Assembly: GCA_027452145.1 (NCBI GenBank)
Contig: DAIDHB010000408.1
Span: 1 to 64,000, forward strand
Direction: 5' to 3'
DNA from: Planctomycetales bacterium
GTDB taxonomy: Bacteria; Planctomycetota; Planctomycetia; Isosphaerales; Isosphaeraceae
Length of the DNA: 64,000 bases
Shown here in pieces: positions 929 to 36,999 of this stretch. Position numbers and translations under genes: made by a program. Position 1 is the first letter of the stretch, and each line of letters starts with the position of its first letter. Under the pieces are notes generated by a model. That model did not search any database, was not told the DNA's origin, and was given only the letters and a program-made list of their open reading frames with translations.

Positions 929-3900
929 ATGATCTCGAAGTTCTTCATCGATCGGCCGATCTTCGCCACGGTGCTCTCCATCGCGATCACCCTGGTCGGC
1001 CTGATCGCCTGGTACAACCTGCCGGTCGCCCAGTATCCGCGGATCACCCCGCCGGGCATCTCGATCACCATCAGCTACCCCGGCGCCAGCGCCCCGGTCG
1101 TGGCCGATACCGTCGCCGCGCCGATCGAGCAGCAGGTCAACGGCATCGACGGGATGCTCTACATGTCGTCGCAGATGGCCAACGACGGGACCTATACCCT
1201 CACGGTGACCTTCGACATCGGCACCGACGTGAATGCCGCGCTCGTCATGGTGCAGAACCGCGTCGCGCTGGCCATGCCGATGCTACCGACCCAGGTGCAG
1301 AACCAGGGGATCACGATCCGCAAGCGCACGCCCGACATGCTGATGATCGTCAACTTCTTCTCGCCCGACGGGCAGTACGACGACATCTACCTGAGCAACT
1401 TCGCCACGGTCCACGTCAAGGACGAGCTGCTGCGGGTCTACGGCGTCTCGGACATCAACTACATGGGCCAGCGGGATTACAGCATCCGCGCCTGGCTGGA
1501 TCCGCAGAAGCTGGCGGCGCGGAACATGACGGCCATGGACGTCGCCAACGCGATCCGCGAGCAGAACATCGACGCGCCGGCCGGGCAGATTGGCCAGCTC
1601 CCCGCGCCGCGGGGCCAGCCGTTCCAGCTTGCCGTCGACACCCTGGGCCGGCTCAGCACGCCCGAGCAGTTCGGCGACATCGTGGTCAAGGTGGGCCGCG
1701 CCGACAGCCGCGAGCCGGCGCCCGGGATCGTGCGCCTCCGCGACGTCGCCCGGCTCGAGCTGGGCGCGCAGAACTACAACCAGTCGTGCACCTTCGACGG
1801 GTATCCGGCGGTCGGGCTGAGCGTCTACCAGCTCCCCGGCACGAATGCGCTCGACGTCGCCACCCGCGTGCGGGCCAGGATGGAGGAGCTGAAGAAGCGG
1901 TTCCCCGAGGGCGTCGACTACGTCGTCGGGTATGACACCACGTTCTACATCAGCGAGTCCATCAGCGAGGTCTACAAGACCCTCCGCGACGCCGTCCTGC
2001 TCGTCGGCCTGGTCGTCCTGATCTTCCTCCAGGACTGGCGGACGATGGTCCTGCCGATGATCGACGTCCCCGTCTCGCTGATCGGCACGCTCGCCGTGAT
2101 GCTCGCGCTGGGGTTCAGCCTGAACAACCTGACCCTCTTCGGCCTGGTGCTGGCGATCGGCATCGTGGTGGACGACGCGATCGTCGTGCTCGAGAACACC
2201 GAGCGGATGATCGCCCGGGGGTACGACGCCCGCACGGCGACGATCAAGGCGATGGAGGAGATCACCGGGCCGATCCTGGCGATCACGCTGGCGCTGAGCT
2301 CGGTGTTCATCCCGTGTTGCTTCATCGGCGGGATCACCGGGCAATTCTTCCGGCAGTTCGCGGTGACGATCGCCGTGTCGACGATCATCTCGGCGGTCAA
2401 CGCGCTGACGATGACCCCGTCGCGCGCTGTGCTGATCTTCCGGACCGAGCAGAAGGGCGCGCACGGCGGCCACGCGATGCGGCGCGAGGCGTTACCCTGG
2501 TGGGCCTTCGCGATCTTCGGGGGGCTGGCGAGTGCCCGGTTCGGCTACGCCCACGCGGCCGGGCAGATGGGCCTCATCCCGCCGGCGGCCGAGGGCCCCG
2601 GCGTCGCGGACGCCGGCTGGATGCCCTGGATCGCCTGGGGCGCGGCGTTCCTGCCCGGGGCGATCGCCGGCGGGATCGCCGGCTGGTTCGTCATCCGCCC
2701 GGTGAACGCGGTGCTCGGCTGGCTGTTCCGCGGCTTCAACCGGCTGTTCGACGTCGCGACCGACCTTTACGGCCGGATCGTCGGCGGGCTGCTGCGGGTC
2801 GGCGCGCTGGTGATCCTGCTCTACGGCGGCCTGCTGGCGCTGACCGTCTGGACGTTCGAGGAATCGCCCAAGGGCTTCATCCCCCAGCAGGACCAGGGCC
2901 GCCTGATCGTGAACGTCCAGCTCCCCGACTCGGCGTCGCTCGAGCGCACCAGGGACGCGATGGCGAAGGTCGTCGCGATCACCCGCGAGGACCCGGGCGT
3001 GGCGCACACCGTGGCCATTGCCGGGCTGTCGTTCCTGCTCCAGACGAATGCGTCGAACTTCGGCTCAATGTTTATCGTGCTCAAGCCGTTCCCCGAGCGG
3101 CAGAAGCCGGGTCTGCACGCTGACGACATCATGAGGCGGCTGCGCAGGGAGTTTCGGCGGCGGGTCAAGGACGCGGACGTGGTCGTTCGCAACTCGGCGG
3201 CGGTCCCCGGTCTCGGCGTCGCGGGCGGCTACAAGATCATGGTCGAGGACCGCGGCGGCCGCGGGCTGCGCGACCTCCAGGATCAGACCGAGCGCCTGAT
3301 CGACGCGATGCACAAGGCCGGGTTGACGTCGGCCTCGACCCAGTTCCGCTCGCTCACGCCGCAGCTCTACCTCGACATCGACCGCGACAAGGCGCAGTCG
3401 ATGGGGCTCACCTTCAACGACGTGAACCAGACGCTCTCGATGTACCTGGGCTCGCTGTATGTCAACAGCTTCAACCTGTTCGGCCGGCACTGGCAGGTGA
3501 ACATCCAGCTCGACGGTGCCTATCGCACCCGGCCCGAGGCGATCAACCTGCTCCAGGTGCGGAACAGGCGGGGGCAGATGGTGCCCCTCGGCACGCTGGT
3601 GAACGTCCGCGAGGTCGGCGGGCCGATCAGCGTGACGCGGTACAACCTCTACACGTCGGCGTCGATCACCGGCAACCTCGGGACAGGCACCAGCTCGGGC
3701 GAGACCATCAAGGCGATCGATCGCCTGGCCGACGATGTCCTGCCGCTGTCGATGAAGGCGGACTGGACCGAGATCATGCTGTTGCAGATCAACGCCGAGC
3801 GGGACAACCCGCCGCTGGTCGTGTTCAGCCTGTCGGCCGTCGCGGTGTTCCTCGCCCTGGCGGCGCTCTACGAGAGCTGGCTGTTGCCGCTGGCGGTGAT

Positions 3901-4600
3901 CCTGGTGGTGCCGATGTGCCTGCTCTGCTCACTGGCGGGCGTGCTGGGCACGGGGCGCGATGTGAATATCTTCGTGCAGATCGGCCTGGTCGTGCTGGTG
4001 GGCCTGGCGTGCAAGAACGCCATCCTGATCGTCGAGTACGCCAGGGAGAAACACCTCGAGGGCTGGTCGCGCGCCGAGGCCACGCGCGAGGCCTGCCGGC
4101 TGCGGCTGCGGCCGATCCTGATGACGTCGCTGGCCTTCGTCATCGGCGTGATCCCGCTGGCCGTCGCCTCGGGCGCGGGCTCGGAGATGCGGCGGTCGCT
4201 GGGGGTCGCCGTGTTCTCGGGCATGGTCGGCGTGACGCTGTTCGGCATCTTCCTGACGCCCGTGTTCTTCCACGTGATCCTGGGCCTGAGCGACGCCCGG
4301 ATGTTCCGCCAGGCCGGCGCGCGCTGGCAAATCTCGGCGGCCGCCGGCGGGCTGGCCGGGCTGGGCGTGGGCCTGCTCTTGCTCCGCGCCGGGATCCTCG
4401 TGCAGTACCGCGCCGTCGCCGCGTGCATCCCGGCCGGCCTGCTGGCGACCCTGGTCGTGCTGAGCCTGCGCCCCGGCTTCCGGCTGGCGGTCTTCGGCCG
4501 CCGCCCGCCGGAACCCGGCAGCACCCGCGGGGCCGACGGCTCATCGTTCCTCGACGACGGCGAGGGCGACGAGACCGAATCGAGCACCACTGACCACTGA
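929..4600 (+). CDS. AcrB-type RND efflux transporter (HAE1 family), first of two
   Basis: 1223 residues, longer than AcrB (1049). Inner-membrane proton-driven drug/solute exporter. Visible family marks are the N-terminal FFIDRPIFA, the TM4 proton-relay pair D415/D416 (GIVVDDAIVV) and the TM10 lysine K1029 (ACKNAILIVE). The linker between the two halves (about residues 523-600) holds two extra hydrophobic segments, around WWAFAIFGG and around the GAIAGGIAG stretch, which AcrB lacks. The C-terminus carries an additional hydrophobic stretch (GLGVGLLLLRAGI onward). The last residues TTDH and the stop codon are encoded inside a heptamer repeat array that runs towards the next pump gene. It presumably assembles with the upstream adaptor. 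Substrate cannot be read from sequence. Confidence 0.95.
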   Translation: MISKFFIDRPIFATVLSIAITLVGLIAWYNLPVAQYPRITPPGISITISYPGASAPVVADTVAAPIEQQVNGIDGMLYMSSQMANDGTYTLTVTFDIGTDVNAALVMVQNRVALAMPMLPTQVQNQGITIRKRTPDMLMIVNFFSPDGQYDDIYLSNFATVHVKDELLRVYGVSDINYMGQRDYSIRAWLDPQKLAARNMTAMDVANAIREQNIDAPAGQIGQLPAPRGQPFQLAVDTLGRLSTPEQFGDIVVKVGRADSREPAPGIVRLRDVARLELGAQNYNQSCTFDGYPAVGLSVYQLPGTNALDVATRVRARMEELKKRFPEGVDYVVGYDTTFYISESISEVYKTLRDAVLLVGLVVLIFLQDWRTMVLPMIDVPVSLIGTLAVMLALGFSLNNLTLFGLVLAIGIVVDDAIVVLENTERMIARGYDARTATIKAMEEITGPILAITLALSSVFIPCCFIGGITGQFFRQFAVTIAVSTIISAVNALTMTPSRAVLIFRTEQKGAHGGHAMRREALPWWAFAIFGGLASARFGYAHAAGQMGLIPPAAEGPGVADAGWMPWIAWGAAFLPGAIAGGIAGWFVIRPVNAVLGWLFRGFNRLFDVATDLYGRIVGGLLRVGALVILLYGGLLALTVWTFEESPKGFIPQQDQGRLIVNVQLPDSASLERTRDAMAKVVAITREDPGVAHTVAIAGLSFLLQTNASNFGSMFIVLKPFPERQKPGLHADDIMRRLRREFRRRVKDADVVVRNSAAVPGLGVAGGYKIMVEDRGGRGLRDLQDQTERLIDAMHKAGLTSASTQFRSLTPQLYLDIDRDKAQSMGLTFNDVNQTLSMYLGSLYVNSFNLFGRHWQVNIQLDGAYRTRPEAINLLQVRNRRGQMVPLGTLVNVREVGGPISVTRYNLYTSASITGNLGTGTSSGETIKAIDRLADDVLPLSMKADWTEIMLLQINAERDNPPLVVFSLSAVAVFLALAALYESWLLPLAVILVVPMCLLCSLAGVLGTGRDVNIFVQIGLVVLVGLACKNAILIVEYAREKHLEGWSRAEATREACRLRLRPILMTSLAFVIGVIPLAVASGAGSEMRRSLGVAVFSGMVGVTLFGIFLTPVFFHVILGLSDARMFRQAGARWQISAAAGGLAGLGVGLLLLRAGILVQYRAVAACIPAGLLATLVVLSLRPGFRLAVFGRRPPEPGSTRGADGSSFLDDGEGDETESSTTDH

Positions 4601-4635
4601 CCACTGACCACTGACCACTGACCACTGACCACTGA
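4587..4635 (+). repeat. Heptamer tandem array, CCACTGA x7
   Basis: Seven perfect, uninterrupted copies of CCACTGA fill the space between the two RND genes. The array encodes the last residues and stop codon (TGA, 4598-4600) of the upstream gene and ends 11 bp before the ATG of the next. It resembles the short tandemly repeated heptamers described in heterocystous cyanobacteria. It is one of five heptamer loci in this window. Confidence 0.95.
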
Positions 4636-4646
4636 AAACGAGCCCC

Positions 4647-7600
4647 ATGATCTCCCGCTTCTTCATCGACCGACCCGTCTTCGCGATTGTGCTCTCGCTG
4701 GTCATCGTGCTGGCGGGGTTCGTGTCGTGGGGCATGCTGCCGGTGGCGCAGTATCCCCAGGTGACGCCGCCCACGGTGACGGTGACGGCGTTCTACCCGG
4801 GCGCGAATGCGCAGACGGTGCGGAACACCGTGGCCGCGCCGATCGAGGAGCAGGTCAGCGGCGTGGAGAACATGCTGTACATGTCGTCGCAGTGCACCAA
4901 CGACGGCACCTATAACCTGACGGTGACCTTCCGCCTGGGCATGGACACCGACATGGCGCAGGTCCTGGTGCAGAACCGCGTGTCGCTGGCGCTGCCGGTG
5001 ATCCCGGCGCTCGTGCAGAACGAGGGGATCAGCGTCAAGAAGATGTCGCCCAACACGCTGATGATCGTGAACCTGGTCTCGCCGGGGGGGCGGTACGAAA
5101 GCACTTACCTGAGCAACTACGCGACGATCCAGATCAAGGACGAGCTGGGCCGGCTGCCGGGCGTCGCGGGGATCACGTTTTTGGGCCAGCGTGATTACAG
5201 CCTGCGCGCCTGGCTCGACCCGGCCAAGATGGCCGCGCTGAACCTGAGCGCCTCGGACGTGATCAACGCGATCAGCCAGCAGAACCTTCAGGTGGCCGCC
5301 GGCCAGATCGGCCAGCAGCCGGTGCCGCGGGGCCAGCAGTTCCAGCTCACGATCAACACGCTGGGCCGGCTGATCGAGCCCGAGCAGTTCGAGGACATCA
5401 TCCTCAAGGCGGGGGATGATTCGTTCCAGCCGGCGGCCGCGGCCGACGCCACGGGCGCCGTCGGCGGCGGGGCGAGCACCAACGGCGGCATGGGGGGCGC
5501 CCAGGCCACGCGGTCGTTCCAGGGCGGCGCCGAGGACCAGGGCGGCACGAACACCCAGGGCTCGACGCTCGCGCAGGCGACCGGCATCGTGCGGCTGCGC
5601 GACGTCGCGCGCGTCGAGATGGGCTCGCGCCAGTACGACCAGTCGTGCACCCTCGACGGCCGGCCCTCGGTGGCCATCTCGATCTACCAGTTGCCCGGCA
5701 CCAACGCGCTCGAGACCGCCCACGGCGTGTATGCCAAGATGCGCGAGCTCAAAGGCCGCTTCCCCGACGAGCTCGACTACCGGATCGTCTACGACACCAC
5801 GCCGTTCATCCAGGAGTCGATCGACGAGGTCTACAACACGCTCCGGGACGCCGTCATCCTGGTCGGCATCGTCGTCCTTGTCTTCCTCCAGGACTGGAAG
5901 GCGATGATCCTGCCGATGATCGACGTCCCGGTGTCATTGATCGGCACCTTCGCCGTGATGGCCGCGCTGGGGTTCAGCCTGAACAACCTGACCCTCTTCG
6001 GCCTGGTGCTGGCGATCGGCATCGTGGTGGACGACGCGATCGTCGTGCTCGAGAACATCGAGCGGCTGATCGCCACCGGGCTGGACTCGCGCACGGCGAC
6101 GATCCGGGCGATGGAGGAGATCACCGGGCCGATCCTGGCGATCACGCTGGTATTGAGCTCGGTGTTCATCCCGTGCTGCTTCATGGGGGGGATCTCGGGC
6201 CAGTTCTTCCGGCAGTTCGCGGTGACGATCGCGGTGTCGACGATCATCTCGGCGATCAACGCGCTGACGATGACTCCCTCGCGCGCCGTGATGATCTTCA
6301 AGACCGAGGGCAAGGGCGCCGACGGCAGCCACGAGCTGAAGCGCGAGGCGCTCCCCTGGTGGTTCTTCGCGATTGTCGGCGGCCTGATCACCGCGCGGCT
6401 GGGTTACGCGTATGCCCGCGGCCAGCTTGGAGTGACGGCCGAGGGGCTGGAGGACGGCTCGGTCTCGGTCTGGATGTCGCGGGCGGCATGGTGGGCCGCG
6501 TTCGGCCCCGGGGCGGTCGCCGGCGGGATCGTCGGCCTCATCATCATCCGCCCGGTGAATGCGGTGCTCGGCTGGCTGTTCCGCGGCTTCAACCGGCTGT
6601 TCGACCGGATGATCGAGGTCTACGGCCGCGTCGTGGGCGGCGTGCTGAGGATCAGCGCCGTCGTGCTTTTGCTCTACGGCGGCCTGCTGGGTCTGACCTA
6701 CTGGGAGTTCATCCGCACGCCCACCGGCTTCATCCCGCAGCAGGACAAGGGCTACCTGTTGCTGAACGTCCAGTTGCCCGACTCGGCCTCGGTCGAGCGC
6801 ACCCAGCGCGCCATGGCGCGGATCGAGGCCCTTGCCCGCGAGACGCCCGGGGTGGCGCACACTGTGGGCGTCTCGGGCCAGTCGCTGCTGCTCAACGCCA
6901 ACGCGCCCAACCTGGGCTCGATGTACGTTTTGCTCGAGCCGTTCGAGCATCGTCGCGGCCACGGGCTGTCGGCCGACGCCATCGCCGATCAGATCCAGGC
7001 CCGCTGCCGCGAGGTCCGCGCGGCGTCCGTCTCGATCTTCGGCGCCCCGCCGATCGACGGCCTGGGCGCCACCGGCGGCTTCAAGCTGATCATCGAGGAC
7101 CGCGGCAACCTCGGCCTGGAACACCTCCAGCACATCAGCGACGCGATCGTCGAGCGCGGCAATCGGACGCCCGGCCTCCAGGGGCTGTTCAACAGCTCGC
7201 GCGCCAACACGCCCTGGCTTTATCTCAACATCGACCGGACCAAGTGCATGGTCCTGGGCGTGCCGATCAGCGAGCTGTTCAGCACGTTGCAGGTGTACCT
7301 GGGTTCGTACTATGTCAACAACTTCAACAAGTTCGGCCGGACCTGGCAGGTGAACGTCCAGGCCGACCAGCGGTTTCGCGGCGACGCCGAGGACATCCGC
7401 CAGCTCCAGGTGAGGAACAACCGCGGGCAGATGATCCGCCTGGCGACCCTGCTCGACGTGAGCAACACCAGCGGCCCCGTGGCCGTGATGCGGTACAACA
7501 TGTACTCGGCGACGGCGATCACCGGGAACGCCGCGCCGGGGACCAGCTCGGGCCAGGCGATCGCCATGATGCAGGAGATCGCCGACAAGGAGCTGCCGCG

Positions 7601-8243
7601 GTCGATGGCCTCGGACTGGACCGAGCTGGCGTTCATGGAGCGCCAGCAGGGGAACACGGCGATCGGGATTTTCGCGCTGGCGGTGGTGTTCGTGTTCCTG
7701 GTTCTGGCGGCGCAGTACGAGAGCTGGAAGCTGCCGCTGGCGGTGATCCTGGTGGTGCCGATGTGTTTGCTCTGTTCGCTGGTGGGTGTGAACATGGCGG
7801 GGATGGACGTCTCGCTGTTCACGCAGATCGGCTTCGTGGTGCTGGTGGGCCTGGCGAGCAAGAACGCGATTTTGATCGTGGAGTTCGCCAAGCAGGCGCA
7901 GGAGTCGGGCGCCTCAAGACGCGAGGCAACCCTCGCGGCGTGCCGGCTGCGGCTGCGGCCGATCCTGATGACGTCATTTGCGTTCATCTTCGGCGTGGTG
8001 CCGCTGGTGCTCTCGGAGGGCGCGGGCGCCGAGATGCGCCGGTCGCTGGGCACGGCGGTCTTCGGCGGCATGCTGGGCGTGACGCTCTTCGGCGTCTTCC
8101 TGACGCCGGTGTTTTACTACGTCATCCAGCGCAACGCCGGCCCGTCGACCACGCCGACGGTCCCGCACGAGTCCAACGGCACGCCGCCCGAAGGCGATGT
8201 CGCCACGGTGGTCGACGGCTTCCCGGCGGAGGTCCGGCATTGA
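4647..8243 (+). CDS. AcrB-type RND efflux transporter (HAE1 family), second of two
   Basis: 1198 residues, a clear paralogue of the preceding gene. Proton-relay residues D462/D463 and K1072 (ASKNAILIVE) are present. Residues about 258-315, in the porter domain, hold a low-complexity Gly/Ala/Gln insertion (GGGASTNGGMGG) missing from the paralogue. The central linker (about residues 570-640) again holds two extra hydrophobic segments. One adaptor with two different RND subunits recalls MdtABC and MuxABC, where the two pumps form a heterotrimer, so a hetero-oligomeric pump is plausible but inferred. The ATG at 4647 begins the conserved FFIDRPVFA motif. No strong Shine-Dalgarno is visible because the repeat array lies directly upstream. 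Confidence 0.95.
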   Translation: MISRFFIDRPVFAIVLSLVIVLAGFVSWGMLPVAQYPQVTPPTVTVTAFYPGANAQTVRNTVAAPIEEQVSGVENMLYMSSQCTNDGTYNLTVTFRLGMDTDMAQVLVQNRVSLALPVIPALVQNEGISVKKMSPNTLMIVNLVSPGGRYESTYLSNYATIQIKDELGRLPGVAGITFLGQRDYSLRAWLDPAKMAALNLSASDVINAISQQNLQVAAGQIGQQPVPRGQQFQLTINTLGRLIEPEQFEDIILKAGDDSFQPAAAADATGAVGGGASTNGGMGGAQATRSFQGGAEDQGGTNTQGSTLAQATGIVRLRDVARVEMGSRQYDQSCTLDGRPSVAISIYQLPGTNALETAHGVYAKMRELKGRFPDELDYRIVYDTTPFIQESIDEVYNTLRDAVILVGIVVLVFLQDWKAMILPMIDVPVSLIGTFAVMAALGFSLNNLTLFGLVLAIGIVVDDAIVVLENIERLIATGLDSRTATIRAMEEITGPILAITLVLSSVFIPCCFMGGISGQFFRQFAVTIAVSTIISAINALTMTPSRAVMIFKTEGKGADGSHELKREALPWWFFAIVGGLITARLGYAYARGQLGVTAEGLEDGSVSVWMSRAAWWAAFGPGAVAGGIVGLIIIRPVNAVLGWLFRGFNRLFDRMIEVYGRVVGGVLRISAVVLLLYGGLLGLTYWEFIRTPTGFIPQQDKGYLLLNVQLPDSASVERTQRAMARIEALARETPGVAHTVGVSGQSLLLNANAPNLGSMYVLLEPFEHRRGHGLSADAIADQIQARCREVRAASVSIFGAPPIDGLGATGGFKLIIEDRGNLGLEHLQHISDAIVERGNRTPGLQGLFNSSRANTPWLYLNIDRTKCMVLGVPISELFSTLQVYLGSYYVNNFNKFGRTWQVNVQADQRFRGDAEDIRQLQVRNNRGQMIRLATLLDVSNTSGPVAVMRYNMYSATAITGNAAPGTSSGQAIAMMQEIADKELPRSMASDWTELAFMERQQGNTAIGIFALAVVFVFLVLAAQYESWKLPLAVILVVPMCLLCSLVGVNMAGMDVSLFTQIGFVVLVGLASKNAILIVEFAKQAQESGASRREATLAACRLRLRPILMTSFAFIFGVVPLVLSEGAGAEMRRSLGTAVFGGMLGVTLFGVFLTPVFYYVIQRNAGPSTTPTVPHESNGTPPEGDVATVVDGFPAEVRH

Positions 8244-8250
8244 GGACATC

Positions 8251-9492
8251 ATGAGATCTATTGCCTTCTCCTGCCATCCTTCCCGGGGCGATCGGCGGCA
8301 CTATGTCGCGGAAGACGATGTCCGCATCGTCCTCGGTCGACTCCCTGAGCCGCTATGGGCCAGGCTCAGGGCCATTCATTTCAATGACCGGGCGATGGGG
8401 CGTCGGATCCTCGGCTACGTGAGGGCCGCCGGGAGGAACGAGATCAGCCTCTGCGCTCTCCCGCCCCGGGTCAGCTTGTCCCCCTTTTTGAAGCGGAATC
8501 AGTCGCCCACTCAGTTCGGCGCAGTACGCGGCTGCCAGTGGCCTGCACTGGCCGTGCGGCGATTCATGCTCTACGACGTCTTGCTCCACGAGATCGGCCA
8601 TCTTCAGGTTGTCGACGCCCGGGCAAAGGCGAATCGTCGCAAGTTCGCGGAGGAGACCCGTGCCCAGGAGTTCGCCGATCACTGGCGCCGGGAAATGTGG
8701 TCGCGTTCCTTCGACCATCCCGACCCGGTCCACAACCCGCCTTCCGCCGAGGAGATCGAAGTCGTGCGCGCCGGCTGGCGGGCGGCGCAGGTCGATTACA
8801 AGCGGGGGATACTTCGCGAGAAGTCGGGGCAATACGACAAGGCTGTCCACGACCTGACCCGGGCCATCGAGCGTTATCCGGGCCACGCCATGGCGCTGGA
8901 ACGGCTAGGCTTGCTGACCTATGCCGGCCGGGGGACGACCCAGTCCAACGACCGCGCGATCGAGCTTTTCCGTTCGGCGGTCCGACTGGACCCGACCCTC
9001 TACGCGGCGACCCTGTTCCTCGCGCTGGCCCTTTCCCGGCAGGGCCGCCAGTTCGAGGCCAGGGGGTGGTTCCGGCGTGCGATTCTCCTCGACCTGTTTC
9101 CTCCGCTGGCGATGGCGTGGTACGCGGACTCCCTGGCGGATTGGGGTCGCCTCGCCGAGGCGGAGGCCCTGTTCCTGAAAGCCATCAAGAAGGACGGGCG
9201 ATGCGTCGTCGCGATTCGGGATTACGGGCGCTCCCTGCTGAGGGGCGACGATCCCGTGCCGGAGGACAACATCCGACGGGCCGTCGTGCTGTTCGAGCGG
9301 GCCGTGGCTATTGACCCCGACGATCCGGAATCCCATTATCGACTCGGCGACGCCTTGCTCGGCCTCGACGTCGACCGGGACCGGGCAATCACTCATCTCA
9401 AGCGGGCCTTGCAACTCAATCCATCGCATGCGATGGCCGCCGAGGCGCTCGCCGAAGCCCGGGCGGATTGCGAAGGCACCGACGCGAGCTGA
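8251..9492 (+). CDS. HExxH metalloprotease-like domain fused to TPR repeats
   Basis: 413 residues; ATG 8251 is chosen because it follows the RND stop by 7 bp and the protein reads well from there. The N-terminal part has H113-E-I-G-H117, preceded by a hydrophobic run (MLYDVLL) as in zinc metalloproteases. A possible third ligand is the Glu in AQEFADHW about 25 residues later. From about residue 185 to the end it is built of tetratricopeptide repeats (YKRGILREKSGQYDKAV is typical). No signal peptide is seen, so it is probably cytoplasmic. It may be co-transcribed with the pumps. I cannot name a family; proteolytic activity is inferred from the motif only. Confidence 0.8.
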   Translation: MRSIAFSCHPSRGDRRHYVAEDDVRIVLGRLPEPLWARLRAIHFNDRAMGRRILGYVRAAGRNEISLCALPPRVSLSPFLKRNQSPTQFGAVRGCQWPALAVRRFMLYDVLLHEIGHLQVVDARAKANRRKFAEETRAQEFADHWRREMWSRSFDHPDPVHNPPSAEEIEVVRAGWRAAQVDYKRGILREKSGQYDKAVHDLTRAIERYPGHAMALERLGLLTYAGRGTTQSNDRAIELFRSAVRLDPTLYAATLFLALALSRQGRQFEARGWFRRAILLDLFPPLAMAWYADSLADWGRLAEAEALFLKAIKKDGRCVVAIRDYGRSLLRGDDPVPEDNIRRAVVLFERAVAIDPDDPESHYRLGDALLGLDVDRDRAITHLKRALQLNPSHAMAAEALAEARADCEGTDAS

Positions 9493-9539
9493 GCGGCCCC
9501 GGGCAGAGCGGCCGAGGAGGACGACGGTGCCACGCCGCA

Positions 9540-9889
9540 GCCCATCTGGAGACCAATCGTCAAGAATGTCAATTGTGCCCAAAGCGGCTTTCAGTACGTC
9601 CCTCGACTCGGCCGAGGCCAGCGCCACCAGGCCGTCGAGAGATCCTTTCCAGGCATCGAGATGTGCCCCGGCCAGGGGGGCTGCGAGGAAGTCGCTCGTC
9701 GAGGGCAGGCGGTGCTGCCAGGCGGCCGCCACGACCAGCGCACGGACCGGAGGCCCGGCTTCGTCCTGATACGCCGTCACAAGGGCCGAGATGGCCTGGT
9801 TTCGAGCTCCGCCAACCCCTGAAACGCCGTCTCGTGCTCGCCGTTAAGGCCGCGTCAAGGTAGAGGCCGACCATGGTCAGCGGGTCCAT
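9540..9889 (-). pseudogene. Decayed HEAT-like repeat protein gene (frameshifted remnant)
   Basis: On the minus strand a good start (ATG 9889, MDPLTMVGLYLDAAL) runs into a different frame with NGEHETAFQGLAELE, and then into a third with AISALVTAYQDEAG and DAWKGSLDGLVALAS. The three pieces read in order as one HEAT-like protein (the DAWK-x-LDGLV motif is typical), so at least two frameshifts separate them. The frame then runs into the 3' end of the TPR gene without a convincing end. Sequencing error is an alternative to genuine decay. Confidence 0.55.
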
Positions 9890-10208
9890 TTGGACTCCTG
9901 GGAATCAACGCTCGTCAATGCATTCGATTTCCCCTGAATCGCGTCCCACGCGAATCCCAAGAAAGAAAGTAAAAGGCCTCCGCCATGGTAATCCTGGTCC
10001 CAAAGCCTTTGCAGCGAGCGACATGGAGATAGCGAACGCGTTGTGTTGTACTTTGTCTACAACCGTCGACGACCTCCGACTCCATCGGTTCGATCGAACA
10101 ATGGCCATCTCCCTTGCGTCGTCCCGGAATTCGAGACTTCTCGCTCAACACCACCGCGGTCCCTCCGCAAGACCATGGTTGACAAGGACTTGAAGGCGGT
10201 TTTTTGGG

Positions 10209-10439
10209 CACTCCTCGCCGAACACCGCCTGGCCGGTCCTGGGCGAACCGGCGACGTCAGTCGCCGGGTGGACTCGCCAGCTCGGGCAACGCCGCTCGAC
10301 GCCTTCGGGCGACCCGGCGACGTGAGTCGCCGGGTCATCAGGCCGAGAGCCAAAACCCGGCGACTCACGTCGCCGGTTCGCCCAGCCCGAGCGATCCGCC
10401 CATGCCGGGCTCGAACCAGATGGTGTTCGGCGAGGAGTG
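10209..10439. mobile_element. 231-bp miniature inverted-repeat element
   Basis: The ends are perfect 18-bp inverted repeats (10209-10226 and 10422-10439). Inside are three copies of a palindrome built on CCGGCGACGTNAGTCGCCGG at 10242-10269 (+), 10308-10335 (+) and 10355-10382 (-). No coding capacity and no obvious target-site duplication are seen. The same palindrome occurs at 28.3, 28.5, 60.6 and 61.9 kb. The 319 bp between the HEAT remnant and this element hold nothing I recognise. Confidence 0.75.
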
Positions 10440-10505
10440 TCCGGAATTCGGATCACCAGGGCCGGCACTTGGGGTTACATTGTCAAAGACACGAAGGAGG
10501 TTGGC

Positions 10506-10760
10506 ATGAGGACGCGCATCATCCGCATCGGCAATTCACAGGGCATCCGCATTCCCATGCCGCTGCTCGAGCAGACCGGCCTCTGCGATGAGGTCGAGCT
10601 CGTTGTTCGGGACGATTGCCTGATTATCCGTCCGATCAGGAAGCCACGGGCCGGCTGGGCTGAGGCCTTCCGCGAAATGGCCTGCCGGGGCAATGACGCC
10701 TTGCTCGATGATGCCGCGCCGAGCCTGTCGAGCTGGGACGAGTCGGGATGGCAATGGTGA
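10506..10760 (+). CDS. AbrB/MazE-family antitoxin-like DNA-binding protein
   Basis: 84 residues. The N-terminus (MRTRIIRIGNSQGIRIP) is the classic swapped-hairpin AbrB fold of MazE-type antitoxins, and the acidic/aromatic C-terminus (SSWDESGWQW) is the usual toxin-binding tail. ATG 10506 is chosen for the strong AAGGAGG 5 bases upstream; an in-frame start at 10437 would precede it without a site. No intact MazF-like toxin follows. A 29-codon frame overlaps its stop (10754-10843) at the place where a toxin gene normally begins. It is therefore an orphan or has lost its toxin. The miniature element lies 66 bp upstream. Confidence 0.85.
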   Translation: MRTRIIRIGNSQGIRIPMPLLEQTGLCDEVELVVRDDCLIIRPIRKPRAGWAEAFREMACRGNDALLDDAAPSLSSWDESGWQW

Positions 10761-10843
10761 TCAGATCGTACTGTCTCGCCTCGGATCACTCCGCCACCCC
10801 ACCCAATCCCCCCGCGATTTGCCATCTCACCGTTTTGTACTAG
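10754..10843 (+). other. Short frame overlapping the antitoxin stop; possible toxin stub
   Basis: ATG 10754 overlaps the antitoxin TGA and begins MVIRS, as many MazF-type toxins begin MVIRxGD, but it loses any resemblance at once and stops after 29 codons. It may be a remnant of a deleted toxin gene or chance. Confidence 0.2.
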
Positions 10844-10960
10844 TCCTTGCCTGAGAGGTGCCTCGCGCCACCGCACCCGATCGATTGGCCGGATGAGGCT
10901 CCGACGGCGGAGCCGCGCGCATCCGGGGTGGCGAGAACCCGCAACGGAGGACGATCGACG

Positions 10961-13042
10961 ATGGCGATGCTTGACCGCGCGCAGAATCTGCTGGCACGGA
11001 ATTTCCTGGCCCACCGAGGGCGCCGACCCGCCCGGAACACCGTCCGTCGGCGCGAGCTCGAGGTCCTGGAAGCCCGCGCGCTGCTCACGACGTTCACGGT
11101 GACGAACCTGCACGCCGCGGGCGCCGGCTCGCTCCGCCAGGCGATCATCCAGTCCAATAGCCACCCCGGCCCCGACACGATCGACTTCGGCGTGATGGGA
11201 ACGATCAAGGCCGGCCGGCAGTCGCTGCCGGCGATCACCGGGACAACCACGATCGACGGCACCACCGCGCCGGGATTTCAGGGCTCGCCGGTCGTCACGG
11301 TGAACTTCAACGGGACGCGCGGCCTGCGGTTCGCCGCGGGATCGGACGGCTCGGCGCTCGAGGCGCTGGCGCTCGTCCGGGCTGGTGGCGCGGGGGTCAC
11401 GCTGATCGGCTCAAACATCACGGTGCAGGGGAACGACATCGGCGTGATGGCCAACGGCTCGACCGTCGCGGCGAACCGCGGCGACGGCATCCGGATCGTG
11501 GCCGCGTCGCACGGCGACATCATCGGCCAGCTCGACCCGGTGACGAGCATCAGCTACTACAACACCGCGACCATCGACCAGACGATGCCGGTCTCGGGCT
11601 GGCAGGGCATCCGCAGCGCCGGCACGCCGGGGCAGTACCTCATCACCGGCACCTCGAACACCAACGGCCTGCTGTACATCGGCCCGATCTCGGGCCAGGG
11701 CGGCACGCCCCTCTCCGTCAACTATCCGAACGCCTTCTCCACCAGCGTCTACGGCCCCGACGTCGTCTCGGGCAGCGGCAGCAGCCAGGTCCTGCGGCTG
11801 GTCGGCAGCTACAGGGCCACCCAGGGCGGCCCCGTCCAGGGATTCGTCTTCCAGGGGACGACCGCCGACCTGTCAAATTCCGCCGACTACAAGACGATTG
11901 ACTACTCGGGCGCGAACTACGTCTACGTGCACAGCACGATGGGCGACCTCGCCGTGGGCAACGCCGGCGATATCCCCGCCCAGACCGACCATGCCTTCAT
12001 TTACAGCGTCCCCCAGGGGCAGATCGTTTCGACCATCACCTATCCGGGCTCGCAGGTGACGTCCACCACGGCCTACGGCATCTGGTACAACGGCGGGACC
12101 AGCTACACGATCGCCGGCGGGTATACCACGCTGCTCAGCCCCGGCCAGACGGCCAGCGAGGCCTACCTGGTCGATTACAACGCGTCCAACGGGCAGTTCA
12201 GCAACTGGACCTCGTTTGCCGGGCCCGAGGGGCTCACGGGACCGTCCTTCGCCACGCACTTCCAGGGGATCAGCAGCCCCGTGCCGGGCGTCTATACCCT
12301 GAGCGCCGACGTGACCAACCCCACGTCGAGCACGCCCCTCCAGGCCACGCTGACCACGGTGCTGCGCAATCCCGACGGCACGTTCGGCCCCGCCTACTGG
12401 GTCAACCTGAACTATCCCGGCGCGACCGGGATGCAGACCGCCGACTCGGTGGCCGGCAACCAGGTCGTCGGCCTGGCCGACCTGGGCTCGAACGGGGGCA
12501 TCATCTCGTACCAGGCGACGGTCAACCTGGGCTTCCGGCTGTCGAACGTCATCAGCGGCAACCGCGGCAACGGCATCGCGATCCACGGCGCCTCGGGCGT
12601 CCGGATCGGCATGAACAACATCGGCACCAACGCCAGCGGCACCCTCGCGCGCGGCAACGCGAAGAACGGCATCCTGCTCGACGGGGGCGCGTCGGGGAAC
12701 CAGATCGGCGGCCTGGCACCCGTGGGCGGCGACAGTAGCAGCGGCAGCAGCAGCGGGAACGTGGGTGTCCGCCCGCCGCAGGGCAACCTGATCTCGGGCA
12801 ACCGGGGGAACGGCGTGCTGATCACCGGCGGCGCGACCGGCAACGTGATGACCGGCAACTACGTCGGCACGAACGCCCAGGGCAACCCCGCGCTGGGCAA
12901 CCGCCAGGACGGCGTCGCCGTCATTCACGCCGGCAGCAATCAGGTCGGCAACGGCATGCCGATGGGCAACGTGATCTCGGGCAATGCCCGCAGCCAGGTC
13001 CGGACGAGCGCGGCCGTCCGCCTTTCTGGTCGCGGCGCCTGA
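10961..13042 (+). CDS. Secreted right-handed beta-helix protein with LEPR-xLL-type N-terminus, 3' truncated
   Basis: 693 residues from ATG 10961 (GGAGG about 10 bases upstream). The N-terminus carries the planctomycete export motif in the form LEVLEARALL, followed by TFTVTNL and GAGSLRQAI, typical of large secreted beta-helix proteins. Helix rungs are seen near residues 110-190 (GDGIRIV) and again near 525-680 (NVISGNRGNGI, NLISGNRGNGV, GNYVGTNAQGNPALG). Residues about 190-520 are a separate insert without these rungs. It ends abruptly in the middle of a rung (NVISGNARSQV followed by a non-rung tail), and a further rung fragment lies downstream in another frame, so the gene is broken. Probably a surface or extracellular protein of unknown ligand. 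Confidence 0.85.
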   Translation: MAMLDRAQNLLARNFLAHRGRRPARNTVRRRELEVLEARALLTTFTVTNLHAAGAGSLRQAIIQSNSHPGPDTIDFGVMGTIKAGRQSLPAITGTTTIDGTTAPGFQGSPVVTVNFNGTRGLRFAAGSDGSALEALALVRAGGAGVTLIGSNITVQGNDIGVMANGSTVAANRGDGIRIVAASHGDIIGQLDPVTSISYYNTATIDQTMPVSGWQGIRSAGTPGQYLITGTSNTNGLLYIGPISGQGGTPLSVNYPNAFSTSVYGPDVVSGSGSSQVLRLVGSYRATQGGPVQGFVFQGTTADLSNSADYKTIDYSGANYVYVHSTMGDLAVGNAGDIPAQTDHAFIYSVPQGQIVSTITYPGSQVTSTTAYGIWYNGGTSYTIAGGYTTLLSPGQTASEAYLVDYNASNGQFSNWTSFAGPEGLTGPSFATHFQGISSPVPGVYTLSADVTNPTSSTPLQATLTTVLRNPDGTFGPAYWVNLNYPGATGMQTADSVAGNQVVGLADLGSNGGIISYQATVNLGFRLSNVISGNRGNGIAIHGASGVRIGMNNIGTNASGTLARGNAKNGILLDGGASGNQIGGLAPVGGDSSSGSSSGNVGVRPPQGNLISGNRGNGVLITGGATGNVMTGNYVGTNAQGNPALGNRQDGVAVIHAGSNQVGNGMPMGNVISGNARSQVRTSAAVRLSGRGA

Positions 13043-28519: not shown

Positions 28520-32157
<3,638 letters not shown>

Positions 32158-33623: not shown

Positions 33624-33838
33624 GGTCGCTCTCCGATGCTCGTCCAGGACCGGGCCCTTCCCGCGAGATCGACCGGCCGATCGCGGTCCGAGCATCATCC
33701 CAGCCGGAAGGGTCGGACGCCATGGCCCTTCGCGCTCCACCTATCGATGTTCAGGATCTCCTCCCGGAGCGGAAAGCTTTCGTCGATTTGTTGGGCTCGC
33801 TATGATGGGGGAAGTGATCATCCCGAGGGAGGACGCTC

Positions 33839-34096
33839 ATGTCAGAATCGACGACCTGTTCGGCGCTCAACCTCCAGGCGGCTCGCCAGATCAACGAAGC
33901 GGCGCGGAAGGATCCCGGCTCGCCTTTCGCGGGCAAGTTCGTCGGGCTCGTCGATGGCCAGGTTGTGGCGGCAGGCGACGACCCGGATGATGTGGTCGAG
34001 CGGCTGCGCCAGATCGAACCGGATCCGAGCCGGACGTTTTGCTTTGAGGCCGGCCTGGACTATGACCGAGTCGAAGACATCTGGGCCCTGCGCTGA
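33839..34096 (+). CDS. DUF5678 small protein
   Basis: 85 residues. The central GKFVGLVDGQVVAAGDDPDDV is the DUF5678 core, a short domain with no assigned function, and the C-terminus ends DRVEDIWALR. A strong GAGGGAGGA precedes ATG 33839, and TATGAT at 33801-33806 may be a -10 box. The stop TGA overlaps the ATG of the next gene (TGATG), so the two are translationally coupled. This arrangement with a retropepsin-like protein suggests they work together. Confidence 0.85.
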   Translation: MSESTTCSALNLQAARQINEAARKDPGSPFAGKFVGLVDGQVVAAGDDPDDVVERLRQIEPDPSRTFCFEAGLDYDRVEDIWALR

Positions 34097-34494
34097 TGCC
34101 CCAGATCCTCTGGCCCCTGGTCAATCATCGACCGATCATCGAAATCGTCCTCTCGCCGACCACGGGAGGTCCGTCCCTGGTCCGTCAGGTCATCGCAGAT
34201 ACGGGGGCCGGCAGAGCGCAGTCCGGCTTTGAACTCGTCGTCAACGAGACGGACTGTCTCGTTTGTGGCGGCATCCCGTCTTACCCGATCACACTGGGCG
34301 GGGCCTATGCGGGATTGTTCCCGGTGTACCTGGTCCGTATCGGGATTCCTGCATTGAGCTTCGACCATACCCTGCGGGTCGCGGGCGTACCGTCATGTCC
34401 GACCGGGTTTGACGGCATCGCGGGCTTTCGCCTGCTCAACCGCTTCACCTACGGGAATTTCGGCGATCCGAGCCGGTTTGGCCTGGAAACCTGA
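34096..34494 (+). CDS. Retropepsin-like aspartic protease (clan AA), single-domain
   Basis: 132 residues. A DTGAG motif (VIADTGAG, near residues 34-40) is the catalytic signature of retroviral-type aspartic proteases, and GIAGFRLLNRFTYGNF near the end matches the usual hydrophobic-Gly/second-loop and final strand. Such proteins act as homodimers, each giving one aspartate. Three cysteines are present. No membrane segment or signal. It is coupled to DUF5678 by a 1-base overlap. The target is unknown; the DUF5678 partner could be a substrate, inhibitor or adaptor. Confidence 0.8.
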   Translation: MPQILWPLVNHRPIIEIVLSPTTGGPSLVRQVIADTGAGRAQSGFELVVNETDCLVCGGIPSYPITLGGAYAGLFPVYLVRIGIPALSFDHTLRVAGVPSCPTGFDGIAGFRLLNRFTYGNFGDPSRFGLET

Positions 34495-34693: not shown

Positions 34694-35788
34694 ATGAGAA
34701 TCGGGATCGCCAACGACACGGCCCTGGCCCGCGAGGCGTTGCGCCGGGTGCTGACGTCGTCGCCGGAGCACGAGGTCGTGTGGACGGCCACCGACGGGGC
34801 CGAGGCGATCGCGCTGGCGCGGGCCAATCCGCCCGACCTGATCCTGATGGACCTGGTGATGCCGGGGGTCGACGGGGTCGAGGCGACGCGGCGGATCATG
34901 GGCGAGTCGCCGTGCGCCATCCTGGTCGTCACCTCGACGGTCAGCGGCAACCTGGGTCAGGTGTACCAGGCGATGGGTTATGGCGCGCTCGACGCGACCG
35001 ACACGCCCCGGCTGGGCCCGCGTGGCGAGGTGACCGGGGCGGCCGTATTGCTGCACAAGATCGAGCTGATCGGCCGGCTGGTGGGCAAGCCCGACCGGCC
35101 GCCGCGCGAGCGATGCAGCGAGGTGAGGGCCGGCGCCTCGGCGGCGGAGTCGCCCTTCGCGGCCGGCCCGCCGCTGGACCCGCTGATCGTGCTGGGGGCC
35201 TCCACCGGCGGGCCCCAGGCCCTGGCCGACATCCTCGGAGGTCTGCCGCGGCACCTCGACGCGGGCGTCGTCATCGTGCAGCACGTCGACGCCGCCTTCG
35301 CCCCCGGGCTGGGCAAGTGGCTCTCCGAGCAGGCCAACCGGCCCGTGACCATGATCGCCGAGGGGCACCGCCCGGCCGCCGGCGAGATCCTGCTCGCCGT
35401 TACCGACGACCACGTCGTCCTCGGCGACGATCGCCGCCTGCATTATTCCCCCGAGCCGGTCTCCGCCTGCTATCGCCCCTCGGTCGACGTCTTCTTCGAG
35501 AGTGTCGGGCGGAACTGGCCCCGGCCGGGCGTCGCCGCGCTGCTAACAGGCATGTTCCACGACGGCGCCCGCGGGATGCTGGGCCTCCGCCGCCTCGGCT
35601 GGCGGACCATCGCCCAGGACGAGTCCTCCAGCGTCGTCTGGGGCATGCCCAGGGCCGCCGTCGAGCTCGGCGCCGCCGAGGAAGTCCTGCACATCAACCA
35701 CATCGCCGACAGGATCGCCCGGCTCGTCCGCAACGGCGGCCCGGACTGGGCACCCATCGAACCCTACCGCCGGGAGCCCCTGGTATGA
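34694..35788 (+). CDS. WspF-like CheB receptor methylesterase
   Basis: 364 residues. N-terminal receiver with phospho-acceptor D53 (LILMDLVMPGVDGVEATRRIM), linker, then the CheB methylesterase domain with S170 (GASTGG), H197 (VQHVD) and D290 (TGMFHDGARGM). The receiver's MRIGIANDTALAREALRR, MGYGALDATDTPRLG and the following HKIELIGRLVGKP closely resemble WspF of the Pseudomonas Wsp surface-sensing system rather than chemotaxis CheB. It removes methyl groups from chemoreceptor glutamates. It overlaps the next gene by 4 bp (ATGA). No CheA, CheW, CheR or receptor gene lies within the window on either side. Confidence 0.93.
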   Translation: MRIGIANDTALAREALRRVLTSSPEHEVVWTATDGAEAIALARANPPDLILMDLVMPGVDGVEATRRIMGESPCAILVVTSTVSGNLGQVYQAMGYGALDATDTPRLGPRGEVTGAAVLLHKIELIGRLVGKPDRPPRERCSEVRAGASAAESPFAAGPPLDPLIVLGASTGGPQALADILGGLPRHLDAGVVIVQHVDAAFAPGLGKWLSEQANRPVTMIAEGHRPAAGEILLAVTDDHVVLGDDRRLHYSPEPVSACYRPSVDVFFESVGRNWPRPGVAALLTGMFHDGARGMLGLRRLGWRTIAQDESSSVVWGMPRAAVELGAAEEVLHINHIADRIARLVRNGGPDWAPIEPYRREPLV

Positions 35789-36999
35789 GCACCGACGCCC
35801 TGCCCGCCCTGACCGAGCACAAGGTCACGGTCCTGTTGATCGACGACCAGCCCATGATCGGCGAGGCCGTCCGCCGCATGCTTGCCGGCGAGCCCGACGT
35901 CGTCTTCCACTACTGCCGCGACGCCGCAAAAGCCCTCGACGAGGCCCACCGCGTCGAGCCCACCGTGATCCTCCAGGACCTCGTCATGCCCGACATCGAC
36001 GGGCTCACCCTGGTCAAGACCTTCCGCGCCAACGAGCGCACCCGCGAGACCCCGATGATCGTCCTCTCCACCAAGGAGGAGCCCACCGTCAAGGCCGAGG
36101 CCTTCGCCCTGGGCGCCAACGACTACATCGTCAAGCTCCCCGACCGCCTCGAGCTCCTGGCGAGGATCCGGTATCACTCCAGGGGCTACATCAACCTGCT
36201 CCAGCGCAACGAGGCCTACGACGCTCTGCTCGAAAGCCAGCGCAAGCTGGCGCACGAGATCCACCAGGCCACCCGCTACGTCCGCTCGCTCCTGCCCGAG
36301 AAGCTCAGGAAGGGCGAGGTCCGCACCGACTGGCGGTTCGTCCCCTCGGCCGAGCTGGGGGGCGACTCGTTCGGGTATCACTGGCTCGACGACGACCACT
36401 TCGCCTTCTTCCTCCTGGATGTCAGCGGCCACGGGGTCGGCTCGGCCCTGCTGTCGGTCTCGGCGCTGAATGCCCTGCGCTCGCAGGCGCTGCCGAATGC
36501 CGACTTTCGCGTCCCTTCGCAGGTGCTCGCGGCGCTCAACAACGCGTTTCAGATGGACCAGCAGAACGGCCTGTTCTTCACCATCTGGTACGGCGTCTAC
36601 CACCGGCCCAGCCGAAAGCTCGACTACGCCGGCGGCGGGCATCCGCCCGTGCTGCTGCTGACCGGCCCGTCGGTCGACCGCGCGGCGCTCTCGGTCCTCG
36701 AATCGCAGGGCCCGATGATTGGCGCCGTGCCCGACCTCGAATTCCAGTCCGGGTCCGCGCAGCTCGACGCCTTCGCCAAGGTCTACCTCTACAGCGACGG
36801 GGCCTACGAGATCCAGCGGACCGACGAGACCATGTGGCCGTTCGACGAGTTCGTCGCGTTCATGAAGCAGGGGCCGCACGACGCCGCCGACGGCGCCATG
36901 ATGGACCGCCTGATCGCCCACGACCGCATCCTCCAGGGCCGCGACGAGTTCATCGACGATTTCTCGATCGTCGAGCTCCAGTTCCTGGGCGGCTCGTGA
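35785..36999 (+). CDS. WspR-like receiver fused to PP2C/SpoIIE phosphatase
   Basis: 404 residues. Residues about 14-135 are a receiver with phospho-acceptor D65 (VILQDLVMPDIDGLTL), and VLSTKEEPTVK, GANDYIVKLPD and IRYHSRGYI are nearly those of WspR. A coiled-coil (LQRNEAYDALLESQRKLAHEI) follows, as in WspR. Where WspR carries a GGDEF diguanylate cyclase, this protein has a PPM/SpoIIE-type phosphatase from about residue 180: the metal-site motifs GGDSFG and LDVSGHGVGSALLS are present, with DGAYE and the late DDFSIVEL. Phosphorylation at D65 probably controls dephosphorylation of an unknown Ser/Thr phosphoprotein. Confidence 0.93.
   Translation: MSTDALPALTEHKVTVLLIDDQPMIGEAVRRMLAGEPDVVFHYCRDAAKALDEAHRVEPTVILQDLVMPDIDGLTLVKTFRANERTRETPMIVLSTKEEPTVKAEAFALGANDYIVKLPDRLELLARIRYHSRGYINLLQRNEAYDALLESQRKLAHEIHQATRYVRSLLPEKLRKGEVRTDWRFVPSAELGGDSFGYHWLDDDHFAFFLLDVSGHGVGSALLSVSALNALRSQALPNADFRVPSQVLAALNNAFQMDQQNGLFFTIWYGVYHRPSRKLDYAGGGHPPVLLLTGPSVDRAALSVLESQGPMIGAVPDLEFQSGSAQLDAFAKVYLYSDGAYEIQRTDETMWPFDEFVAFMKQGPHDAADGAMMDRLIAHDRILQGRDEFIDDFSIVELQFLGGS

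Follow-up and report, generated by a model that had tools for sequence, protein, structure and literature searches.

A pair of overlapping genes in a 64,000-nucleotide stretch of DNA from a planctomycete of the Isosphaeraceae type (hereafter the window) probably encodes the adaptation and output components of an ACF-class pathway of the Wsp type, one that would end in dephosphorylation of a STAS protein and not in cyclic di-GMP. Wsp is the textbook surface-sensing, cyclic di-GMP pathway. The sequences show that every component is homologous to its Wsp counterpart, that relatives keep the operon order and that the catalytic residues are intact.

The upstream gene of the pair, a wspF-type cheB (34694..35788, + strand), encodes a 364-residue protein with a receiver (PF00072, about 34706-34993, +) and a methylesterase domain (PF01339, about 35186-35716, +; CheB_methylest, E = 2.7e-49), and it scored above the cut-off of the NCBIfam model PRK12555. 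The downstream gene (35785..36999, +) encodes a 404-residue REC-PP2C response regulator, identified by Pfam (Response_reg, 4.5e-20; SpoIIE/PP2C, 4.3e-37), PDB sequence and fold matches. It sits in the slot held by WspR in canonical wsp operons. Its frame is open from 34498; the start taken is the ATG at 35785, which lies inside the ATGA that ends wspF. This stop/start overlap (35785..35788, +) suggests translational coupling of wspF and the REC-PP2C gene. Both genes, as reported by the first-pass annotation, were confirmed as real by Pfam; the pair is far beyond chance because it is conserved across the order and its architecture is found in several phyla. The WspF receiver (window 34694-35100) matches the Pfam receiver model only to about residue 100, and its C-terminal part, the expected site of the conserved lysine, is divergent, as it is in locus L147. 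Upstream of the pair, a small ORF and then a retropepsin-like ORF (33838-34494) appear unrelated; a catalase-peroxidase (KatG-like) gene lies at 28520-31216 (- strand).

The receiver (35830..36171, +; PF00072 over residues 16-129) and the following long helix, or stalk (36145..36288, +; residues 121-168 in the AlphaFold2 model), were searched as a 165-residue query against all PDB sequences. Pseudomonas aeruginosa WspR (3bre) was matched at an E value of 4.2e-57 (196 bits) and P. syringae WspR (3i5a) at 2.5e-56; the next family was PleD (1.6e-15), and RssB, a REC-PP2C protein, scored 45 bits over its receiver. The WspR alignment extends through the stalk to residue 156, and the first part of the helix matches the WspR stalk. 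The earlier reading of a WspR-type receiver and coiled-coil is thus upheld, the motifs quoted for it being present exactly or almost exactly as given. In the receiver tree, where the comparison set was ten receivers drawn from the window genome and one relative, including two fused to PP2C, WspR-type receivers formed one side of a branch with 94% SH-aLRT support; the window receiver grouped with them and apart from the other REC-PP2C proteins of its own genome. The same receiver occurs in proteobacterial replicons at about 60-65% identity. Eight such proteobacterial loci were fetched; all were assigned a GGDEF output, and those with annotation lie within full wsp operons. Residues D20, D21, D65, S95 and K117 of the receiver were invariant among 30 diverse relatives.

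These data bear on whether the protein is simply a REC-PP2C stress regulator of the ordinary RssB/RsbU type with a cheB gene as its neighbour. P. aeruginosa RssB (3eq2, 3f7a) shares the REC-PP2C domain order, is the nearest solved full-length fold and the best full-length fold match, and also provides the best NCBIfam model, although the 108 bits obtained fall far under the cut-off of 700. Its receiver belongs to another family (45 bits, versus 196 for WspR), the window receiver groups with WspR, and REC-PP2C proteins end Wsp operons in many genomes. Receiver scores, tree and operon context together rule this reading out, and we give it almost no credence. To our knowledge, P. aeruginosa RssB is not encoded in a chemosensory operon.

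The output protein lacks GGDEF and carries in its place a SpoIIE-type PP2C phosphatase core (PF07228 over residues 202-399; 36388..36981, +), as first proposed from the letters alone. The folded PP2C domain starts near 36319, ahead of the Pfam core. In the AlphaFold2 model (pLDDT 90.9), a 48-residue helix connects the receiver to a PP2C fold, which matched the RssB, SiaA, RsbU-domain and SpoIIE phosphatases. Some RssB-type PP2C domains are known to be inactive, and the domain could likewise be a pseudo-enzyme that has a binding role, like that of E. coli RssB, and lacks phosphatase activity; all catalytic residues are intact, however, and every acidic metal-site residue (D194, D212, D338, D391 and D392) was invariant in the 30 diverse relatives, which makes a pseudo-enzyme very unlikely.

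The CheB-like gene was likewise found to be of the WspF type, as had been proposed. WspF-position CheBs from canonical proteobacterial operons scored 301-333 bits against the window CheB, versus 90-128 bits for the other CheBs of the window genome, and the WspF types, the window CheB included, formed one clade (86% SH-aLRT) in the CheB tree. An ordinary chemotaxis CheB was ruled out; the window gene did not group with the CheBs of other chemosensory clusters. Neither of the two placements that would have counted against the first-pass proposal, a receiver among ordinary REC-PP2C proteins or a CheB among ordinary chemotaxis CheBs, was thus seen.

The first-pass annotation had also noted that the rest of the Wsp set was missing. 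This holds for the window and not for the genome (10.9 Mb, 556 contigs), in which a search for WspA-E recovered the full set in canonical order on contig C467 (locus L031). The genes there run UrtA-like, WspA, WspB, WspC, WspD, WspE, with WspA-E at 3778-11279 of the locus; the WspA-E products are a receptor (MCP signalling and HAMP domains), CheW, CheR-TPR, CheW and CheA-REC, as in wspA-E. The CheR with TPR on this contig and the multidomain REC-PP2C response regulator are features of the ACF class as defined in a survey of CheR-TPR clusters (PMC3447774). No wspF or wspR follows wspE in the 357 bases left on the contig, and no other WspF-like candidate was recognised in the CheB list of the genome. 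The wsp genes of this genome thus occupy two loci and not one operon. In ten Isosphaeraceae loci (L073, L074, L076, L078-L081, L084, L094 and L095), WspE or an earlier gene, WspF and REC-PP2C follow one another contiguously or within a few kb, and the distance from WspE to REC-PP2C is about 43 kb in genome G001, 22 kb in G031, 16 kb in G002 and 4.5 kb in G030. Given relatives in which the set is joined or spaced apart, the two loci of the window genome appear to represent a step in the break-up of an operon and not a loss of genes. In a comparison of 45 genomes of the order, searched with a 485-residue WspE core, REC-PP2C was present in 28 of 28 genomes with this WspE versus 7 of 17 without it (Fisher p = 6e-6, genomes being counted irrespective of kinship). 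Since WspA-E and the WspF-output pair lie on different contigs, their connection in the window genome would rest on homology and this co-occurrence. Extra copies of the N-terminal (Hpt) region of WspE, fused to or beside it, were seen at L073, L078, L094 and L162.

The receiver alignment was used to scan 84,980 species genomes, and the best 80 loci by nearness to the window receiver were kept, a set that is not a census and is skewed towards PP2C relatives. PP2C was the output of the main regulator at 67 of these 80 nearest loci, the other outputs being class III nucleotidyl cyclases, histidine kinases and, once, GGDEF. WspE- and WspF-type genes share the stretch in at least 32 PP2C loci, many of them with the full A-F set. 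Lineages among the matches listed include Verrucomicrobiota and six in which Wsp-type operons end in REC-PP2C: Planctomycetota, Desulfobacterota, Lentisphaerota, Elusimicrobiota, Ignavibacteriota and Gammaproteobacteria. In sister Wsp-type operons, the terminal protein carries GGDEF, a class III cyclase or a histidine kinase. Of 393 planctomycete genomes sampled, 70 had a match, and in 44 of these the REC and PP2C match was full-length at 38% identity or more. The receiver and stalk would be a natural output-swapping adaptor for PP2C, GGDEF, class III cyclase and histidine kinase, and such a module would permit comparison of one allosteric mechanism among four enzymes. Three deltaproteobacterial loci (L114, L140 and L156; about 7.6-11.2 kb) carry a REC-class III nucleotidyl cyclase and a REC-PP2C gene in tandem in one Wsp operon, a branched output from one kinase. 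WspR-type receivers fused to class III cyclases or histidine kinases were seen in filamentous cyanobacteria (L148, L151, L158, L165, L167, L172 and L174), several of the genes lying within Wsp-like operons.

The direction of the output change was addressed with a WspE tree rooted on further CheAs, taken from the window genome and one relative. WspE proteins of PP2C, GGDEF, cyclase and kinase systems formed one clade (100/100), inside which GGDEF systems were one clade (100/97) within a grade of PP2C systems. PP2C systems as one side of the tree were recovered in 0% of bootstraps, and the deepest branches include PP2C. In the AU test, a single PP2C clade (p = 0.37) and a tree with GGDEF branching first (p = 0.26) both survived. 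The point estimate of the tree favours replacement of PP2C by the cyclase over the reverse, with neither direction rejected. The first-pass annotation had it that the cyclase was replaced by PP2C; the wide spread of PP2C systems and the tendency of the GGDEF clade to nest inside them speak against this, the AU test permitting either direction. In its full form, that claim describes a canonical surface-sensing Wsp pathway in which this lineage exchanged the cyclase for PP2C, so that contact drives dephosphorylation. All components are indeed homologous to canonical Wsp, and a single PP2C clade survives the AU test; set against these are the many phyla that PP2C systems span, their place on the deepest WspE branches with 0% of bootstraps for a PP2C side, and a receptor whose sensor is dCache-like, not 4HB_MCP. 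We consider replacement in this lineage unlikely. It is possible, somewhat short of an even chance, that Wsp-type pathways are at root chemosensory-to-partner-switch pathways, in which REC-PP2C would be the older and most widespread output, and the cyclic di-GMP-making WspR of proteobacteria, like the cyclase and kinase outputs, a later swap onto the same receiver and stalk.

The input side differs as well. The receptor on C467 showed a weak dCache_1 match (44.0 bits versus a Pfam cut-off of 45). The two GGDEF-linked canonical receptors scanned (L176 and L178) carry a 4HB_MCP_1 sensor; PP2C-linked receptors have dCache-like, Cache3-Cache2, Tll0287-like or PDC sensors, or none recognised. Together with the UrtA-like neighbour of the receptor, this leaves the earlier assumption of the same input as in known Wsp systems unsupported, and surface sensing cannot be assumed here because the sensor differs from that of canonical WspA. 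The UrtA-like (urea/amide) binding protein, encoded directly upstream of the WspA-type receptor (L031, 1884-3698), has a long N-terminal extension, a strong Peripla_BP_5 match (9e-152) and 474 bits against the NCBIfam UrtA model, just under the cut-off of 493. Its position beside the receptor suggests that the signal in Isosphaeraceae may be a small nitrogen compound. A UrtA-like gene also adjoins the receptor in L073, L079, L080 and L095, in Isosphaeraceae only among the loci examined.

Relative to the WspR form of Wsp (Pseudomonas, Burkholderiales; REC-GGDEF), the PP2C form has the same gene set and order, A-B-C-D-E-F-output, orthologous WspE and WspF, and an output receiver and stalk about 60-65% identical. 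It differs in its PP2C output in place of GGDEF, in its dCache-like sensor in place of 4HB_MCP, in the UrtA-like protein beside the receptor and, in the window genome, in the split of WspF-output from WspA-E. The Burkholderia Wsp H-system, in which WspH is a REC-histidine kinase beside WspR, was described in 2021 from beta- and gammaproteobacteria, and within these two groups all Wsp systems appeared to use WspH or WspR (PMC8552884). WspH provides a precedent for coupling this receiver type to an output other than a cyclase; unlike the REC-PP2C protein, it is a kinase and its gene is at the 5' end of the operon. PP2C outputs in such clusters have been known since 2012, when a survey of CheR-TPR clusters listed REC-Ser/Thr phosphatase (family 2C) among the outputs, together with REC-mononucleotidyl cyclases (PMC3447774). 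The main text of that survey gives domain types only and contains no shared WspR-type receiver, no cross-phylum operons, no STAS/RsbW linkage and no tree. Among the papers searched, none was found to describe a PP2C Wsp system as such. Wsp genes including 'WspR' have been reported in planctomycetes (PMC6461901), and the output of some of these 'WspR' proteins may be PP2C. If the same sensory core drives dephosphorylation across phyla, 'Wsp' or 'WspR' in a genome does not imply cyclic di-GMP, and planctomycete Wsp gene calls such as these would need rechecking.

The proposal that the phosphatase acts on a STAS/anti-sigma partner gained support from neighbouring genes identified by profile searches. 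Genes for a STAS protein and for an HATPase_c_2 protein of the RsbW-like kind lie within about 2 kb of REC-PP2C at L103, L113, L147, L152 and L161, which represent five lineages; the pairs of L103 and L113 are supported by Pfam. The phosphatase, STAS antagonist and RsbW-like kinase of these loci are the classical partner-switch trio. Such linked operons exist in cultured species, for example Desulfoferrobacter suflitae (L113), and the idea is therefore directly testable. At L175, a HATPase gene lies directly before wspB. The window genome has 21 STAS matches and about ten good HATPase_c_2 matches; in the profile search none of these genes adjoined the wspF/REC-PP2C pair. Among the STAS and HATPase loci fetched, nothing close to an orthologue of the linked pair was found, the window-genome proteins scoring 51 (STAS) and 36 bits (HATPase) versus 139-161 and 158-202 bits within the linked family. 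The PP2C substrate may thus not be a STAS protein at all; the enzyme could act, for example, on a component of the chemosensory pathway or on proteins phosphorylated by Ser/Thr kinases of the eukaryotic type. Such a target would fit with Isosphaeraceae, the window genome included, having no adjacent STAS/RsbW genes, and with the STAS and kinase pair occurring at only 5 of the 79 PP2C loci with enough flank among the matches listed. SpoIIE-type PP2C phosphatases of known substrate, however, act on STAS antagonists (PMC9239204, PMC6482189), and in five lineages the small regulatory partners linked to the phosphatase, where present, are of the STAS and RsbW-like types. We therefore rate a non-STAS substrate as improbable, though the most serious of the alternatives, and infer that the target is a STAS antagonist.

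In the pathway ending at a STAS antagonist, the receptor, perhaps together with the UrtA-like protein, would bind an extracellular signal and thereby set the activity of the WspE kinase, which would phosphorylate the receivers of both the REC-PP2C protein and WspF. WspF would demethylate the receptor as feedback. Phosphorylation of the other receiver, and pairing through the stalk, would alter PP2C activity, most likely upward, and the phosphatase would strip phosphate from the STAS-domain antagonist. The antagonist would then bind an RsbW-like kinase/anti-sigma protein and gene expression would shift, so that the endpoint would be protein dephosphorylation (partner switching) in place of cyclic di-GMP; the phosphatase output would probably turn gene regulators on or off. 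Phosphotransfer and activation, like the target, we infer from sequence. HsbR, a REC-PP2C-kinase that dephosphorylates the antagonist HsbA once its receiver is phosphorylated (PMC6482189), is taken as the tested precedent for how a receiver-controlled PP2C may work here. A REC-controlled PP2C with a STAS-type antagonist as substrate is common to HsbR-HsbA and CrsR-CrsA (PMC6482189), and is proposed here by analogy; the window protein differs from HsbR, whose phosphate donor is HptB instead of a CheA array and which has its own kinase domain. Two further loci, L184 (G000:C504:24344-25153) and L185 (G000:C158:33505-34311), contain frames of 288-308 residues in which a receiver is fused to an RsbW-like HATPase_c_2 domain, a putative receiver-controlled anti-sigma-type kinase.
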